Assembly (NCBI GenBank): GCA_028291405.1
Contig: JAQGID010000395.1
Location: forward strand, 1 to 64,000
Source of the DNA: Rhodospirillales bacterium
Lineage (GTDB): Bacteria > Pseudomonadota > Alphaproteobacteria > ATCC43930 > CGMCC-115725
Length of the DNA stretch: 64,000 nt
Direction: 5' to 3'
The translations under genes and the position numbers were made by a program. Shown piece after piece: positions 25,987-31,914 of the stretch. Under the pieces are notes generated by a model. The model worked only from the letters and a program-made list of their open reading frames with translations, was not told where the DNA came from and ran no database searches. Within the stretch, counting starts at the first letter, position 1. The number at the start of each line of letters is the position of its first letter.

Positions 25987-26883
25987 TCAAGCAGCTTGGC
26001 TGCTCACCGTTGCGGCGCTCGCTGTTGCGGCGGCTGACTGGAAGCTCTGCTCCTGGAGACGGATGAGCGCCGCCAGAAGCTTCTCGGTCGTCGGCGTCTG
26101 GTTATTGTTGGCGGCCGCGGTGGGATCGGTCGCCGACGTGGCGTCGGTAGAGCCCGACTGGCTCGTCGACGTCGAGGTTGCCGGCGTCGACAGGGTCACC
26201 TTCGTACCGTCCGCGTAGGTCACGGTCGTGCTCGATGAGCCGTCGGCGTTGGTCGTCGTCGTCCCTGTCCCGACGCTCGACGAGGTGCCGCCCAGCAGTG
26301 CGGAGAGAGGGTCGGTGCTGCTGCCGTCGGTGGTGGTCGGCGGCGGCCCGGCATGGTGGTGATGGCCATGGCCCTGCGCCGAAGCCGCCTGCAGCTCGCT
26401 TTGGCTGACGTTGCCGTCGCCGTTGGTGTCGAGCTTGCCGAAGACGGCGTCGGCCTGCTGCGTCGTCCCGCCGGTCGCGCTGAAGGCGCTTTCGAGCTCG
26501 GACTTGCTGATCTGCCCGTTGCCGCTCGTGTCGACCAGGGAGAACAGACTTTGGCCCGACGTCGCGCTCGCGCTCGGATCGCTCGATGCGGTCGATGTCG
26601 GCGTCGTCCCGCTGCCGGTACCCGATGACTGCTCCTGGACGAGGATGAAGACCATTAGGGCGCTGGCGTTCAACGGTGACGAGCTGCTGCTGGTCACCGG
26701 GTTCGTCGAGCCGCTGCTCGAGCTCGACGGGTCGGTGGAAACCGCCGTCGACGCGGTCGACGAGGCGGATGTGCCACCGACGGCCGTGGGGTCGGTACTC
26801 GCGGTATGGCGGGCGAGCAGCTGTTGGCGAATTTGTGCCAGCAGATCGCTCGATCCGCTCCCTACACTACCAATGCTAGACAT
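25987..26883 (-). CDS. EF-hand calcium-binding, Ser/Thr-rich low-complexity protein
   Basis: This 298-residue protein has two adjacent canonical EF-hands. Loop 1 runs from Asp118 to Glu129 (DTSGNGQISKSE) and loop 2 from Asp152 to Glu163 (DTNGDGNVSQSE), each with full 12-residue ligand spacing. They are flanked by long Ser/Thr/Gly/Ala-rich tracts and a His cluster (HGHHHH at about 171-176). A conserved-looking N-terminus (SSDLLAQIRQQLLA) and a C-terminal helix (EKLLAALIRLQEQSFQ) may mediate assembly. No Sec signal peptide is seen; such proteins are often exported by other routes or stay cytoplasmic. GGAG lies about 9 bases before the ATG; the longer frame to 26985 is rejected. Function unknown. 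Confidence 0.85.
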   Translation of the reverse strand: MSSIGSVGSGSSDLLAQIRQQLLARHTASTDPTAVGGTSASSTASTAVSTDPSSSSSGSTNPVTSSSSSPLNASALMVFILVQEQSSGTGSGTTPTSTASSDPSASATSGQSLFSLVDTSGNGQISKSELESAFSATGGTTQQADAVFGKLDTNGDGNVSQSELQAASAQGHGHHHHAGPPPTTTDGSSTDPLSALLGGTSSSVGTGTTTTNADGSSSTTVTYADGTKVTLSTPATSTSTSQSGSTDATSATDPTAAANNNQTPTTEKLLAALIRLQEQSFQSAAATASAATVSSQAA

Positions 26884-27039
26884 TGCATAGCTCCGTTTCT
26901 TGCGCGTTCGGCAAGATTGCCGGACGTCGCAAATCGGGACGCCGCAAGAATCGGGCCAGCATACCACGATCCGGTGTGCTCGCATTTTCGCTTCTGACGT
27001 GCTGCGGGAGCAGGGGACTCGCCCGGCGGGGACCTTCCT

Positions 27040-27093: not shown

Positions 27094-27432
27094 CTAAAGG
27101 GTGATCACCTGGTCGGGCGGATTGCCGGACAGCGCCTTGTAGAGATCCGGGAAACAGCCGATCGGCACGCCGGCGAACAACCGGTCGGCGATCTCGCGCT
27201 CGTAGCAGCACTGGTCGCAGCCCATCAGCAGAATGTTCTTCTCCTGCGCGACCTTGACCAGCCGCGCGCCGATCGGATTGCCGTCGACCAGGACGAAGTT
27301 GTTGTCCTCGAAGAAGAACATGCCGATGACCTCGGCACCGTGCCGTCCTTCCTCGAGCTGCGGCAGGATCATCTTGGCGAGGACGTATGACACGTTGTGG
27401 CGCTGCGTCGCGAAAATATAGGCGACCTTCAT
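27094..27432 (-). CDS. DsrE-like small sulfur-relay-type protein
   Basis: This 112-residue single-domain protein looks like the DsrE/YchN fold: alternating strands and helices starting MKVAYIFATQRHNVSYVLA. Its cysteines are Cys72, Cys75, Cys76 (GCDQCCYER) and Cys93 (PIGCFPD). Cys72 and Cys75/76 occupy the position where DsrE-family proteins carry the persulfide-bearing cysteine. GGGGAA precedes the start, and its ATG overlaps the IscU-like stop by four bases. It is the last gene of an ABC-importer operon, which suggests it accepts or carries sulfur (or selenium, or a thiophilic metal) delivered by the transporter. That role is inference; the fold assignment is moderately secure. Confidence 0.75.
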   Translation of the reverse strand: MKVAYIFATQRHNVSYVLAKMILPQLEEGRHGAEVIGMFFFEDNNFVLVDGNPIGARLVKVAQEKNILLMGCDQCCYEREIADRLFAGVPIGCFPDLYKALSGNPPDQVITL

Positions 27433-27836
27433 GGTGTTTCCCCTGCGATGGCGAGTTGGTCGGCGTGTAGCAACAACGAGTGGAGCGCAGCGACCGCAAG
27501 GATCGCGCGGTCGCGTTTCGGCGGGGGCACCTCCGGCAAGGAGGCGGCGAGATCGGCGGCGGTGAGGTTCCATGCCGCAGTGGGGCTTCGCCCCGTCGCC
27601 AGCTCAGCGAGCATCTCGCAATAGGCGAGCAGGGTGGCGCAGGGGCTGACCTTGAAGCCGATCGACCGGATCGTGTCGGCGACGAGATCGCCGCTGAAAT
27701 GCGCCGAGAGGTCGTTGCGATCCCGGCATACGACGCCGCGCACGGCGCGGAGCCCGGCGCGGTTGCGCCGCAGGCCGCGGTCGAGATAGTCGCTGACCGA
27801 ACGACGCGGCGTCGTGCCGCAGCAACCGCCTTCCAT
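27429..27836 (-). CDS. Degenerate IscU/NifU-N-like protein with N-terminal vicinal cysteines
   Basis: This 135-residue protein resembles the IscU/NifU N-terminal scaffold in the stretch IRSIGFKVSPCATLLAYCEM, then LAELATGRS and the later LPEVPPPKRDRAILAVAALH. Of the three cysteine ligands of IscU only the middle one (Cys66 in SPCAT) is present. The first (normally CGD) is replaced by DRND, with a displaced Cys37, and the third (normally a HC pair before the last helix) is RD. An N-terminal CCG (Cys5, Cys6) and Cys73 are extra. It probably does not build Fe-S clusters in the standard way; persulfide or metal handling is possible. It starts 3 bases after the permease stop and overlaps the DsrE-like gene. 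Confidence 0.7.
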   Translation of the reverse strand: MEGGCCGTTPRRSVSDYLDRGLRRNRAGLRAVRGVVCRDRNDLSAHFSGDLVADTIRSIGFKVSPCATLLAYCEMLAELATGRSPTAAWNLTAADLAASLPEVPPPKRDRAILAVAALHSLLLHADQLAIAGETP

Positions 27837-27839
27837 CGC

Positions 27840-28592
27840 CTAGCGCCAGCGCAGGAGGTGGCGCTCGAGCCGGCCCGCGAGCGCGAAGATGACGAGGACG
27901 AAAACCATGATGAGAAGCACGAGGGCGAGCATCAGCGCCGAGTTGTAGGTGCTCTGCGCGAAGGAGAGAAGATACCCGAGGCCGCGGCTGGCGGCGACGA
28001 ACTCGCCGACCACCGCGCCGGTGAAGGCGAAGCCGACCGCGACCTTGAGATTGCCCATGATCCACGCCACGATCGACGGCAGATACACGTGGCGAAGCAG
28101 GGCGGTTCGCCCGCCGCCGAGGGTGGTGATGCGCTCGATGAGGCGCCGATCGACCTGCAAGATGCCGGTGAAGACGGTGAAGAAGATCAGCACCGCGACG
28201 AGCACGAAGGACAGCGCGACCTTCGACGCGATGCCGATGCCGAGCCAGATGACGAAGAGCGGCGCCAGCACGACGCGCGGAACGGCGTTGAGCATGATCA
28301 TCACCGGCTCGAGCAGCTCGGCGAGGAAGGGCGCCAAGGCGGCAGCGATGCCGAGGACGGTGCCGACGACGATGCCGAGAGCGAGACCGCCGAGCGCCGC
28401 ACCGAAGGTCGCTTCGAGATGCGGCCAGATCGTGCCGCCGGCGAAGAGGTCGATCAGCGCGCCGACGATGCGGCTCGGCGACGGCGCGTAGAGCGGGTTG
28501 AGCAGCTTCGCCCGTCCCGCCGCCTCCCACAGGCCGATGATGATCGCAAAGGCGATGAACTGGCGAAGCCAGACATACTTGCGGCGCTCCAT
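27840..28592 (-). CDS. ABC transporter permease, nitrate/sulfonate/taurine type
   Basis: This 250-residue inner-membrane permease has about six transmembrane helices. The coupling-loop motif of the binding-protein-dependent family is visible as ITTLGGGRTALLRHVYLPSI (EAA-like, about residues 163-182). The first helix begins right after MERRKYVWLRQ. The start at 28592 overlaps the ATPase stop by one base; a longer frame to 28643 is rejected. It closely fits SsuC/TauC architecture. It forms the membrane channel for the adjacent ATPase and binding protein, and is followed within 3 bases by the IscU-like gene. Confidence 0.9.
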   Translation of the reverse strand: MERRKYVWLRQFIAFAIIIGLWEAAGRAKLLNPLYAPSPSRIVGALIDLFAGGTIWPHLEATFGAALGGLALGIVVGTVLGIAAALAPFLAELLEPVMIMLNAVPRVVLAPLFVIWLGIGIASKVALSFVLVAVLIFFTVFTGILQVDRRLIERITTLGGGRTALLRHVYLPSIVAWIMGNLKVAVGFAFTGAVVGEFVAASRGLGYLLSFAQSTYNSALMLALVLLIMVFVLVIFALAGRLERHLLRWR

Positions 28593-29347
28593 CACGCCGC
28601 CTCGGCCGCGCCGCGATCGACCTCGCGCGAGAGATCGTCCCATAGACGCTCGAGCAGCGGCGCAAAACGTGGATCGCTGCGCGTCGCGATCAGCTTGCGC
28701 GGCCGCGACAGCGGAATGTCGTAGCGCTGCGACATTCGGGCGCGCGGCCCCTGCGACAGCAGATAGACCACGTCGGACAGGCTGATCGCCTCCTCGAGAT
28801 CGTGCGTCACCAGCAGCACGCCGATGCGCTCGCGCTCGGCTAGGTCGACGAGGTCCTGCGTCACGCGCGCCCGCACGATCGCGTCGAGCGAGGCGAAGGG
28901 CTCGTCCATCAGCAGCAGCCGCGGCTTGAGGGCAAGGACCTGCGCCAGCGCGACGCGCTTGCGCTGGCCGCCGCTGAGCTGGCGTGGATACCGATCCCCC
29001 AGGCCGCTAAGCCCGAGCTGCGTCAGCCAAGAATCGGCGTGGTCCGCGGCGCGCCGGCGGTTGCTGCCGTGGAAGCCGAGGCCGAGCGCGACATTCTCGC
29101 GCGCCGTCCGCCACGGCAGCAGCGCATCGTCTTGGAAGAGGATGCCGATGTCGCGCTTGGCGAGCTCGGTCGTAACGCTGCCGGCCAAGGGTTTCTGCAG
29201 CCCCATGACGGCGCGCAGCAGGCTGCTCTTGCCCGACCCCGAGGGGCCGACGAGGCTGACGAACTGGCCGTCGTCGATGTCGAGCGAGGCGCCTTCGAGG
29301 ACCGGGACTTGACCGTAGGACAGCGAAAGATCGGCAACCCGCAGCAT
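28592..29347 (-). CDS. ABC transporter ATP-binding protein, nitrate/sulfonate/taurine type
   Basis: This 251-residue ATPase shows Walker A GPSGSGKSS, signature LSGGQRKRVALAQVLA, Walker B RLLLMDEPFASLD and the switch His in VLLVTHDLEEA. It begins MLRVADLSLSYGQVPVLEG at the ATG 29347; the preceding TTG is not needed. Start and stop overlap its neighbours, so stoichiometric expression with the binding protein and permease is expected. It belongs to the same subfamily as the ATPase at 157-957 but is clearly a different gene. Confidence 0.92.
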   Translation of the reverse strand: MLRVADLSLSYGQVPVLEGASLDIDDGQFVSLVGPSGSGKSSLLRAVMGLQKPLAGSVTTELAKRDIGILFQDDALLPWRTARENVALGLGFHGSNRRRAADHADSWLTQLGLSGLGDRYPRQLSGGQRKRVALAQVLALKPRLLLMDEPFASLDAIVRARVTQDLVDLAERERIGVLLVTHDLEEAISLSDVVYLLSQGPRARMSQRYDIPLSRPRKLIATRSDPRFAPLLERLWDDLSREVDRGAAEAA

Positions 29348-30387
29348 CAACCGCCCATGATCGTGGTGTCCTGCAGCCCGGACGTATCGGTGCCGGCCGG
29401 TAGCAGCCCGGCGCTCGTCAGCGTGTCGGCGACGCGCTTCGAGGCATCGAGGTCGATCGCGACGCGCGTCGGATAGAGCGATCCGCGATAGCGTTCGAGC
29501 ACCGCCTCCATCTCGGCGAGATCGGCGCCGGCGGTCATCTCGCGGGGCAGGGCGCCGACCAGCTCCTTGCCGCTCATCGTCGGCATCGCCTTGAGGGCAT
29601 CCTCGAGCGCCAGGGCGACCTGGACCATCTCGTCGTGCCGCGATGCGACGTCCTTGGCCAGCACCGCGACGCCCATGAACTCATAGGGGCCGCCGAGGTA
29701 TTTCTGAGCGTCGGCGCTGTTCATCGCGTTGACGAGGACCCGCGCGCCGCTCTTCTCCAACAGGGTGAGGGCCGGCTCCTGCACCAGCCCGGCATCGACC
29801 TGGCCCTGGCGCAGCGCCTCGAGGATATTGGTGCCGAGCGTCGCGAACTGCACTTTCGTCGCGTCGGCGCCGGCCTGACGCAGCAGGAAGAGCAGCAGGG
29901 CGTGATCGGCGTTGCCGAGCGCCGAGACGCCGACGGTGCGCCCCACGAGATCCTTGATCTCGCGGATCTGATCGGCGCGGCCCGGCGCCGTCGCGACCGC
30001 GAAGAGCGGCAGGCGGCCGGTCGTGGCGAAACGGCGGATCTCCGCGCCATGGGCATAGGCCTGAAGCGCGACGTCGAGCGACGTCGCGCCGTACTCGACA
30101 GCGCCGCCGACGAGTGCCTGCATCGCGGCATTGCCGCCCCGCGTATAGACGAGTTCGACGTCGAGGCCGTGATTGCGGAAATGACCGCCGGCACGGGCGA
30201 CCTCGTAGGGGACGATGCAGAGAAGCTGGCTGCAAAAGGCGAGCTTGATCCGCTTGCCCTGTGCGCGGCCGACTCCGGGCATGGCGGTCGCGAGAGTGCC
30301 GACGGCGGCAGCCGCGCCGCGGATCAGGGTGCGTCGCGTCACGTCGGGATTGGGGACCCGGGCGAGCGTCTCGTCGCAGCAGCTCAT
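29347..30387 (-). CDS. ABC transporter substrate-binding protein with twin-arginine signal and N-terminal CC motif
   Basis: This 346-residue NMT1/SsuA-like periplasmic binding protein has ligand-cleft segments YTRGGNAAMQALVGGAVEYG, LVGRTVGVSALG and GQVDAGLVQEPA as in that family. The N-terminus is unusual: MSCCDETLARVPNPD precedes a Tat-like signal (TRRTLIRG, hydrophobic run, GRAQG), so vicinal Cys3-Cys4 would be in the cytoplasm before export. It is the first gene of the operon, 44 bases from a predicted transcription start. The cargo is unknown; the operon's DsrE-like and IscU-like partners hint at an organosulfur, selenium or metal-thiol compound (inference). Confidence 0.88.
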   Translation of the reverse strand: MSCCDETLARVPNPDVTRRTLIRGAAAAVGTLATAMPGVGRAQGKRIKLAFCSQLLCIVPYEVARAGGHFRNHGLDVELVYTRGGNAAMQALVGGAVEYGATSLDVALQAYAHGAEIRRFATTGRLPLFAVATAPGRADQIREIKDLVGRTVGVSALGNADHALLLFLLRQAGADATKVQFATLGTNILEALRQGQVDAGLVQEPALTLLEKSGARVLVNAMNSADAQKYLGGPYEFMGVAVLAKDVASRHDEMVQVALALEDALKAMPTMSGKELVGALPREMTAGADLAEMEAVLERYRGSLYPTRVAIDLDASKRVADTLTSAGLLPAGTDTSGLQDTTIMGG

Positions 30388-30467: not shown

Positions 30468-30618
30468 TACCGTAGATCAACAGATTTCTTGCGTTATATC
30501 TTGCCGAGGAGGCTGCGAAATAGCTGGTTCGCCTATCGCCGCGTCGAATGGTTGGTCAAAATCGTTTACGGTGCGCCGACACGAGGCGCGGCAGACGTCG
30601 CAGGAGTGGTTTTCGGGC

Positions 30619-31914
30619 ATGACGGTTGTGAGGCTCGTCGGGCGCGTCATGCTCGGTCTTACAGGTGCATCGGCAAGGGGCTCGTCCTGGGCGAGGCGCG
30701 CGACGGCGCTGTTCGGGCCCGCCGCGCTGGTCGCAGTCGGCTACATGGACCCGGGCAACTGGGCGACCGATCTCGCCGGCGGCTCGGCCTACGGTTATCG
30801 CCTCCTGTCGGTCGTCCTGGCTGCCAGCCTGCTGGCGATTCCGGTGCAGATCCTCGCTGCTCGCCTCGGCATCGCGAGCGGCCGGGATCTCGCGAGCTGC
30901 TGCCGCGAGTTCTACCCGCGTCCGGTCTCTCTCTCGTTGTGGCTGCTCGCCGAGATCGCGATCGCCGCCTGCGATCTCGCCGAGCTCATCGGCGTCGCGC
31001 TGGCGCTCAACCTGCTTTTCGGTCTGCCGATCCTCGCGGGGGTCCTGATCGGAGCCGCCGACGCGATCTTCGTCCTGCAGCTGCAGAACAGCGGCTTCAG
31101 CCGGCTCGAGGCCTATGTCCTCGCACTGATGGCAGTGATCGGCGCTTGTCTCGGCATCGAGATCCTATGGGCGCCGCCCGATGCCGCCGAGCTCTTCGCC
31201 GGGTTCATCCCGCATCCCGAGATTATCCGAGATCCCGCCATGCTCTATCTCGCGATCGGCATCGTCGGAGCGACCGTCATGCCGCACAATCTCTATCTCC
31301 AGTCGTGGCTCGTGTCGCGCAAGGTGCCGGCCGACGAAAGGGCGGCGATCCGCACGGCCGCATGGACAACGACGGCGACCTTGCTGCTGGCGTTTCTCGT
31401 CAACGGCGCGATCCTGGTGGTCGCCGCCGCGGCATTCCATTCGGTCGGACGCACCGACGTCGCCGATATCCGCGACGCCTATGCCTTGCTGACGCCGCTC
31501 GCCGGCGTCGTCGGCGCCAGCTCGCTTTTCGCGATCGCGCTCTTGGCATCCGGTGTCAACGCCACCTTCACCGGCACGCTGGCCGGGCAGATCGTGATGG
31601 AGGGGTTCCTTGAACTTCGCATGAAGCCGTGGCGACGGCGCCTGATCACACGGCTGGCAGCGGTGGTGCCGACGCTCTTCGTCATCGCCTACAGCGGCGA
31701 CGGCGCGATCGGCGGACTGCTCGTCCTCTCTCAGGTCCTGTTGAGCGTGCAGCTGCCTTTCGCGCTGGTGCCGCTCCTGCATTTCGCCGGCGCGCGCCGC
31801 ATCATGGGCGATGCGATCGCACCGCGCTGGCTCCTGGTGACCGGCTGGACCATCGCATCGGCCTTGATCGTCATCGACGCCAAGCTGGTGTTCTACGTGA
31901 TCATGCCGTCATGA
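30619..31914 (+). CDS. mntH: Nramp-family divalent metal (Mn/Fe) : proton symporter
   Basis: This roughly 431-residue inner-membrane transporter has about eleven helices. The metal-binding hallmarks are present: DPGN in TM1 (VGYMDPGNWATDL) and MPHN in TM6 (GATVMPHNLYLQSW). It imports Mn2+ or Fe2+ with protons. I place the start at ATG 30619; the frame is open from 30571, and 30649 is also possible, with no decisive ribosome site. It diverges from the ABC/DsrE-like operon over a 231-base gap and converges with glycogen phosphorylase (25-base gap). No MntR or Fur box is recognised. The gene symbol rests on family identity only. Confidence 0.88.
   Translation: MTVVRLVGRVMLGLTGASARGSSWARRATALFGPAALVAVGYMDPGNWATDLAGGSAYGYRLLSVVLAASLLAIPVQILAARLGIASGRDLASCCREFYPRPVSLSLWLLAEIAIAACDLAELIGVALALNLLFGLPILAGVLIGAADAIFVLQLQNSGFSRLEAYVLALMAVIGACLGIEILWAPPDAAELFAGFIPHPEIIRDPAMLYLAIGIVGATVMPHNLYLQSWLVSRKVPADERAAIRTAAWTTTATLLLAFLVNGAILVVAAAAFHSVGRTDVADIRDAYALLTPLAGVVGASSLFAIALLASGVNATFTGTLAGQIVMEGFLELRMKPWRRRLITRLAAVVPTLFVIAYSGDGAIGGLLVLSQVLLSVQLPFALVPLLHFAGARRIMGDAIAPRWLLVTGWTIASALIVIDAKLVFYVIMPS

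Follow-up and report, generated by a model that had tools for sequence, protein, structure and literature searches.

A conserved, modular operon joining an ABC importer to IscU-like and DsrE-like proteins, a candidate thiol-dependent uptake and relay system

Introduction

The closest described system to the locus reported here is SAO, the Sec (selenocysteine)-assisted organometallic system (Haft and Gwadz 2023, as described in PMC13188914), which combines an ATP-binding cassette (ABC) importer with SaoD, a protein of DsrE type, and in which the selenocysteine motif of the binding protein SaoX is UxP. The separate parts of the locus also resemble SsuA/TauA importers, the TusD/DsrE and YchN carriers, the IscU/NifU_N scaffolds and the SufE/CsdE sulfur acceptors. 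The locus lies in a 64,000-nucleotide stretch of DNA from a Rhodospirillales bacterium (assembly GCA_028291405.1, contig JAQGID010000395.1, positions 1 to 64,000; hereafter the window), where five co-directional genes on the minus strand, from 30387 down to 27094, encode a binding protein, an ATPase, a permease, an IscU-like protein and a DsrE-like protein. This five-gene unit is real, conserved and modular, and the link between the transporter and its partners is not obligatory. We hold with about even confidence that the operon is a thiol-dependent system for the capture, import and relay of a thiophilic cargo.

Results

The five-gene unit

The DsrE-like protein was used to scan about 85,000 species genomes, and the best 80 of the 299 loci obtained were read; close relatives of the query are over-represented in this genome sample. 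The five-gene order is found upstream in 17 other loci among these 80. Nine are from Hyphomicrobiales and other Alphaproteobacteria (L002, L007-L011, L017, L019 and L023), four from Halomonas (L003, L006, L013 and L018), two from Aquisalimonas and another member of the Ectothiorhodospiraceae (L004 and L005) and two from Burkholderiales (L026 and L028, the latter cut by a contig end). Locus-type labels cluster strongly on the tree of DsrE-like proteins (seven changes versus a mean of 40 for shuffled labels), a tree that is weakly resolved and based on few columns. An independent, annotated four-gene operon on a Thermus brockianus plasmid joins the transporter to a DsrE-like gene and has no IscU-like gene, and in three out of 40 genomes having a DsrE-like gene without an adjacent transporter, the transporter is encoded on another contig; the link between transporter and DsrE-like protein also holds without adjacency. 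Among 385 genomes of the class to which the window belongs, two have the binding protein (the window's own genome counted), as do three out of 150 and one out of 369 genomes around G444, the genome of the putative selenocysteine case described below (G444 counted in both).

All five open reading frames are where a previous sequence-only reading of this DNA had placed them, and they do overlap or nearly touch, as it had claimed (Table 1): the single base 29347 is common to the binding-protein stop and the ATPase start, and 28592 to the ATPase stop and the permease start, a 3-base gap separates the permease from the IscU-like gene, and the last two genes overlap by 4 bases (27429-27432). Its family assignments for the five products were likewise upheld by hidden Markov model searches. 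The general best family matches of the transporter parts are SsuA_fam, TauC and TauB, but all scores are far under the family cut-offs (e.g. 88.8 bits for the binding protein against SsuA_fam, with a cut-off of 163.5).

Table 1. Features of the five-gene operon in the window
Feature	Coordinates	Strand	Basis and details
Substrate-binding protein, 346 amino acids	29347..30387	-	NMT1/SsuA superfamily, Pfam NMT1 81.4 bits; Tat-type RR leader, N-terminal Cys3-Cys4; conserved in the 17 other loci and in Thermus
Codons of binding-protein invariant Cys52 and Cys57, predicted ligand loop	30217..30234	-	Cys52 30232-30234, Cys57 30217-30219; alignment
ABC ATPase, 251 amino acids	28592..29347	-	Pfam ABC_tran
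ABC permease, 250 amino acids	27840..28592	-	Pfam BPD_transp_1
IscU-fold protein, 135 amino acids	27429..27836	-	NifU_N match, model versus IscU; sole invariant Cys66, codon 27639-27641
DsrE-fold protein, 112 amino acids	27094..27432	-	NF040913 match, YchN/TusD fold; Cys72 27217-27219, Cys75 27208-27210, Cys93 27154-27156

Invariant cysteines and leader of the binding protein

Two cysteines of the binding protein, Cys52 and Cys57 (in the motif LAFCSQLLCxVPYE), are invariant in 17 out of 17 aligned sequences, and the nearest solved relative (3qsl) has non-cysteine residues at the aligned positions. From the alignment, the pair is predicted to lie at the ligand loop or cleft. The arginine pair R18-R19, of the type found in leaders for twin-arginine translocation (Tat), is also invariant (17 out of 17). 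The Tat leader profile TIGR01409 scores 14.7 on the binding protein, below its cut-off of 16.7; judged by the RR motif, the protein may be exported by the Tat route. All copies read, that of Thermus included, have a vicinal cysteine pair ahead of the RR motif (three of the copies with a re-chosen start). In the window this pair (Cys3-Cys4, 30376-30381) is retained in the leader, though signal cleavage is expected to remove these residues.

The suggestion of the sequence-only reading that some copies use selenocysteine appears to be borne out by one binding protein. In locus L088 (genome G444) an in-frame TGA is found exactly at the Cys57 codon (LAFCGQLL*VVPYEVA), where a close relative, L104, has TGC. 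L088 is otherwise intact in its reading frame, ATPase and permease, and a tRNA-SeC gene is clearly present in the G444 assembly (74.5 bits; anticodon tca by ARAGORN). It is likely, for this single case, that the TGA is read as selenocysteine. A selenocysteine insertion hairpin 3' of the TGA was considered as further support and proved uninformative, as relatives with cysteine satisfy the same rule equally well. The window copy has TGC at Cys57, and since its genome lacks a SelA match and any SelB score above the cut-off, the window's binding protein works with cysteine.

The window's own genome contains a second, decayed binding-protein gene (G000:C264:5726-6136; loci L084 and L119), with 89% identity over 138 residues and the same MSCCDETLARVP leader, adjoined by a Rieske-type oxygenase gene. 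We rejected this copy as a selenocysteine form: its TGA is at a glycine position and its frame is broken.

The DsrE-like and IscU-like partners

The DsrE-like protein matches the NCBIfam family NF040913 ('SaoD/DsrE family') over its full length (173.7 bits; cut-off 152), and scores 144.6 bits against the SaoD equivalog NF040732, under the cut-off of 169. It has no Pfam DsrE match, and an ungapped sequence search of PDB gave chance matches only; as the sequence is too distant, the fold was assigned from a structure model (predicted local distance difference test score, pLDDT, 93), which has the YchN/TusD/DsrE fold (Z about 12). Cys72, Cys75 and Cys93 are invariant in this family across Proteobacteria, Thermus, haloarchaea and the SaoD proteins of SAO loci. 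Cys72 aligns with TusD Cys78, which we take from established work to be the persulfide-transfer cysteine, and Cys72 and Cys75 together align with the CxxC of YchN (the YchN and TusD sequences used were checked against 1jx7 and 2d1p). A phage search with the DsrE-like protein found no match.

The IscU-like protein is assigned to NifU_N (27.8 bits; cut-off 22), and its structure model (pLDDT 92) matches IscU with Z 17.5 and, more weakly, SufE/CsdE (Z 8-9). Its sole invariant cysteine, Cys66, is the central IscU cysteine (36-37 relatives), and the first and third scaffold cysteines are not conserved among the relatives. A canonical iron-sulfur (Fe-S) scaffold role was rejected, as the three ligand cysteines are not conserved; because only the central cysteine is kept, this protein is more likely to be a single-cysteine carrier than a cluster scaffold. 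A plasmid search with the IscU-like protein found no match.

The vicinal cysteines to which the sequence-only reading had drawn attention are all present (Cys3-Cys4 in the binding protein, Cys5-Cys6 in the IscU-like protein and Cys75-Cys76 in the DsrE-like protein), but the argument built on them stands only in part: the N-terminal CC of the IscU-like protein is common among relatives and not invariant, Cys76 is variable in the wider DsrE-like family, and the invariant residues Cys52 and Cys57 (binding protein), Cys66 (IscU-like protein) and Cys72 and Cys93 (DsrE-like protein) had not been listed.

Genomic contexts

Genes for a desulfonase, an oxygenase or a cysteine desulfurase are not recurrent neighbors of the five-gene operon. 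A common regulator or flanking enzyme was considered and dropped, there being no relevant recurring neighbor and no clear shared upstream regulatory site. In the window, an Nramp-family metal transporter gene (382 bits with Pfam; 30571-31914, plus strand) is divergent from the operon and not recurrent elsewhere, and a gene just downstream of the operon (25987-26985, minus strand) encodes a low-complexity Ser/Thr-rich protein with an EF-hand pair. The four Halomonas loci have a common stretch like TATATTGCTAATGTTCTTTATTCTTTG upstream of the binding-protein start, which might be a regulator site, perhaps of CysB-like type.

SaoD/DsrE genes are also found in other surroundings. In Thermus and Thermomicrobium (L123:4299-11136 and L125:3465-7405) they are in or near zinc-uptake genes: those of Thermus encode CobW, AztD-like proteins and a binding protein of ZnuA type, and those of Thermomicrobium a metal ABC importer and Fur. 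The nitrous-oxide-reductase accessory genes NosL/NosD are close by. On haloarchaeal plasmids (L124:1467-7369 and L127:1108-7384) the gene belongs to a conserved cluster with TusA, a mercaptopyruvate sulfurtransferase-like rhodanese and YeeE/YedE, together with two beta-propeller proteins, one of unknown family. With a zinc-linked context in one group and a sulfur-linked context in the other, metal and sulfur trafficking are both possible for this family.

Discussion

A proposed mechanism of capture, import and relay

The mechanism best supported by these observations is one of capture, import and relay, for which the cysteines, the leader and the L088 TGA of the binding protein are the strongest evidence. 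The binding protein, in which the RR motif is observed, would fold in the cytoplasm and leave through the Tat pathway, so that the thiols of its cleft would stay reduced or already loaded; Cys52 and Cys57 (apparently with selenocysteine in one relative) would then hold the cargo. Import by the ATPase and permease would follow, a step that is established for the superfamily. In the cytosol the DsrE-like protein may take the cargo through Cys72, Cys75 and Cys93, joined in many lineages by the single-cysteine IscU-fold protein, which would act in a SufE-like manner and not as an Fe-S scaffold. The cargo would presumably be sulfur, selenium or a metal, as the sequence-only reading had supposed. 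We tentatively favor a soft metal(loid) or organometal species, because two-thiolate/selenolate coordination in the binding-protein cleft is readily reversible; such a cargo is somewhat more likely than organosulfur or selenium, although the probabilities are close.

Several results weigh against the capture-import-relay mechanism. The selenocysteine case is a single relative, and neither SelA nor SelB was found when both were searched for in the G444 assembly. The cleft placement of Cys52 and Cys57 is a prediction from alignment and not from a structure, and the mechanism gives no role to the leader CC. No metal(loid) or sulfur enzyme recurs beside the operon among the loci compared. The gene neighborhoods also vary: among the best 80 of the 299 loci, the IscU-like and DsrE-like genes occur without the transporter in 19 (mostly from Acidobacteria, the others from Chloroflexi, a spirochaete, a Zixibacterium and one member of the Acidiferrobacterales), and the DsrE-like gene occurs alone in 44 (mostly from Gammaproteobacteria, and including the sulfur oxidisers Thiohalophilus, Thiogranum and Thiobacillus), both counts being approximate because some contigs are short. 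Three genomes carry the transporter with both partner genes missing from its vicinity. G093 (a genome 87% complete) has the transporter and no NF040913 match, and a look around the transporters of G556 and G622 revealed neither partner gene. Since the partners occur apart from the transporter and the transporter apart from the partners, they are separable modules; the coupling seen by the sequence-only reading is borne out by the conserved five-gene unit, but not in its strong form.

It is also possible, as tentatively as for the metal(loid) cargo, that the operon encodes an importer of an organosulfur, reduced-sulfur or selenium compound. Sulfane sulfur or selenium from this compound would pass to DsrE-like Cys72 and IscU-like Cys66 and serve biosynthesis or the sulfur supply of the cell. 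Both partner folds are those of known persulfide carriers, with Cys72 at the position of TusD Cys78, and the superfamily of the binding protein is that of sulfonate-binding proteins; the haloarchaeal neighbors (TusA, rhodanese and YeeE/YedE) and the sulfur oxidisers among the DsrE-only loci point in the same direction. Sulfane sulfur, however, would probably become covalently trapped in a cleft that contains thiols, other DsrE-like copies are grouped with zinc-uptake genes, and neither a desulfonase, an oxygenase nor a cysteine desulfurase recurs by the operon.

Zinc or copper nutrition, with a metal or metal-thiol complex being imported and the DsrE-like and IscU-like proteins serving as metal chaperones, seems unlikely. 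The Nramp gene beside the window operon would fit, but Nramp is not among the recurring flanking families; the zinc-uptake clusters and NosL/NosD near the DsrE-like genes of Thermus and Thermomicrobium would fit as well, but no shared upstream regulatory site was found, and to our knowledge no NMT1/SsuA-type binding protein is a zinc importer.

We likewise give little credence to an ordinary SsuA/TauA-type importer of organic anions, with small cysteine proteins tied to it by regulation only and cleft cysteines that are structural: SsuA_fam, TauC and TauB are the best general matches and some genomes have the transporter without the partner genes, but the scores are far under the family cut-offs, no oxygenase or desulfonase partner recurs, the two invariant cysteines are absent in solved relatives, and a structural disulfide would have no use for the selenocysteine that apparently replaces Cys57 in L088.

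Under the capture-import-relay mechanism, the operon may, though this is doubtful at present, represent a new class of ABC importers, extending from Proteobacteria to Thermus, in which the binding protein, exported by Tat, would grip a soft metal(loid), organometal or selenium species with a Cys/Sec pair and pass it to a dedicated thiol relay of a DsrE-fold protein and an IscU-fold protein repurposed from Fe-S assembly. With selenium or a soft metal(loid) as the cargo, the recently predicted SAO idea would extend to Proteobacteria and Thermus, which include culturable, genetically tractable hosts, and would gain an IscU-fold protein working without a cluster site. The Cys/Sec site would offer a direct handle on what such binding proteins hold.

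Comparison with known systems

The window operon shares its transporter superfamily and gene types with SsuA/TauA importers, but its parts are under all family cut-offs, it lacks a recurring oxygenase or desulfonase partner, and its binding protein has invariant cysteines and a Tat-type leader. The DsrE-like protein resembles the TusD/DsrE and YchN carriers in its fold, the position of Cys72 and the YchN-type CxxC, and differs from them in the additional invariant Cys93, which is in a GCFP motif. The IscU-like protein has the fold and the central cysteine of IscU/NifU_N scaffolds, but not their conserved first and third ligand cysteines, and often has an N-terminal CC; its likeness to the SufE/CsdE sulfur acceptors is limited to the weaker fold match (Z 8-9).

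For the comparison with SAO, loci were fetched via SaoX, with full loci in a Bacillota-type sample. Membership of the operon in SAO was rejected by the curated cut-offs: the scores are 146.7 for SaoA (cut-off 360), 87.7 for SaoP (cut-off 295) and 21.3 for SaoX (cut-off 300). SaoL, SaoC, SaoT and SaoE are not matched by any of the five operon genes, to which this comparison was limited. The idea of a non-seleno Sao relative, put forward from the sequence, therefore survives for the DsrE-like protein, which is a non-Sao relative of SaoD, but not for the ATPase, permease and binding protein, which are not close to their Sao counterparts. In both systems an ABC importer is accompanied by a DsrE protein of SaoD type; SaoD and the window's DsrE-like protein have 52-54% identity and share Cys72, Cys75 and Cys93. 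Selenocysteine is present in some SAO members and apparently in one relative of the window's binding protein. SaoX, which belongs to the same superfamily as the window's binding protein, likewise has cysteines conserved at two positions predicted to be in the cleft, one in the first loop (YYNCDHM) and the other in CCDP, where UxP would fit the second cysteine. The cysteine positions differ, however, as a profile alignment puts the CCDP of SaoX on VQEP of the window's binding-protein family; the SAO ATPase and permease are 33-38% and 20-25% identical to those of the window; the IscU-like protein is extra in the window operon; and the window's binding protein has a Tat-type leader in place of the lipoprotein signal of SAO. 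Given the shared SaoD-type protein and cleft cysteines on the one hand and the distant ATPase and permease on the other, the window system and SAO appear to be separate families with a common principle, a thiol- or selenol-lined binding protein working with a SaoD-type protein.

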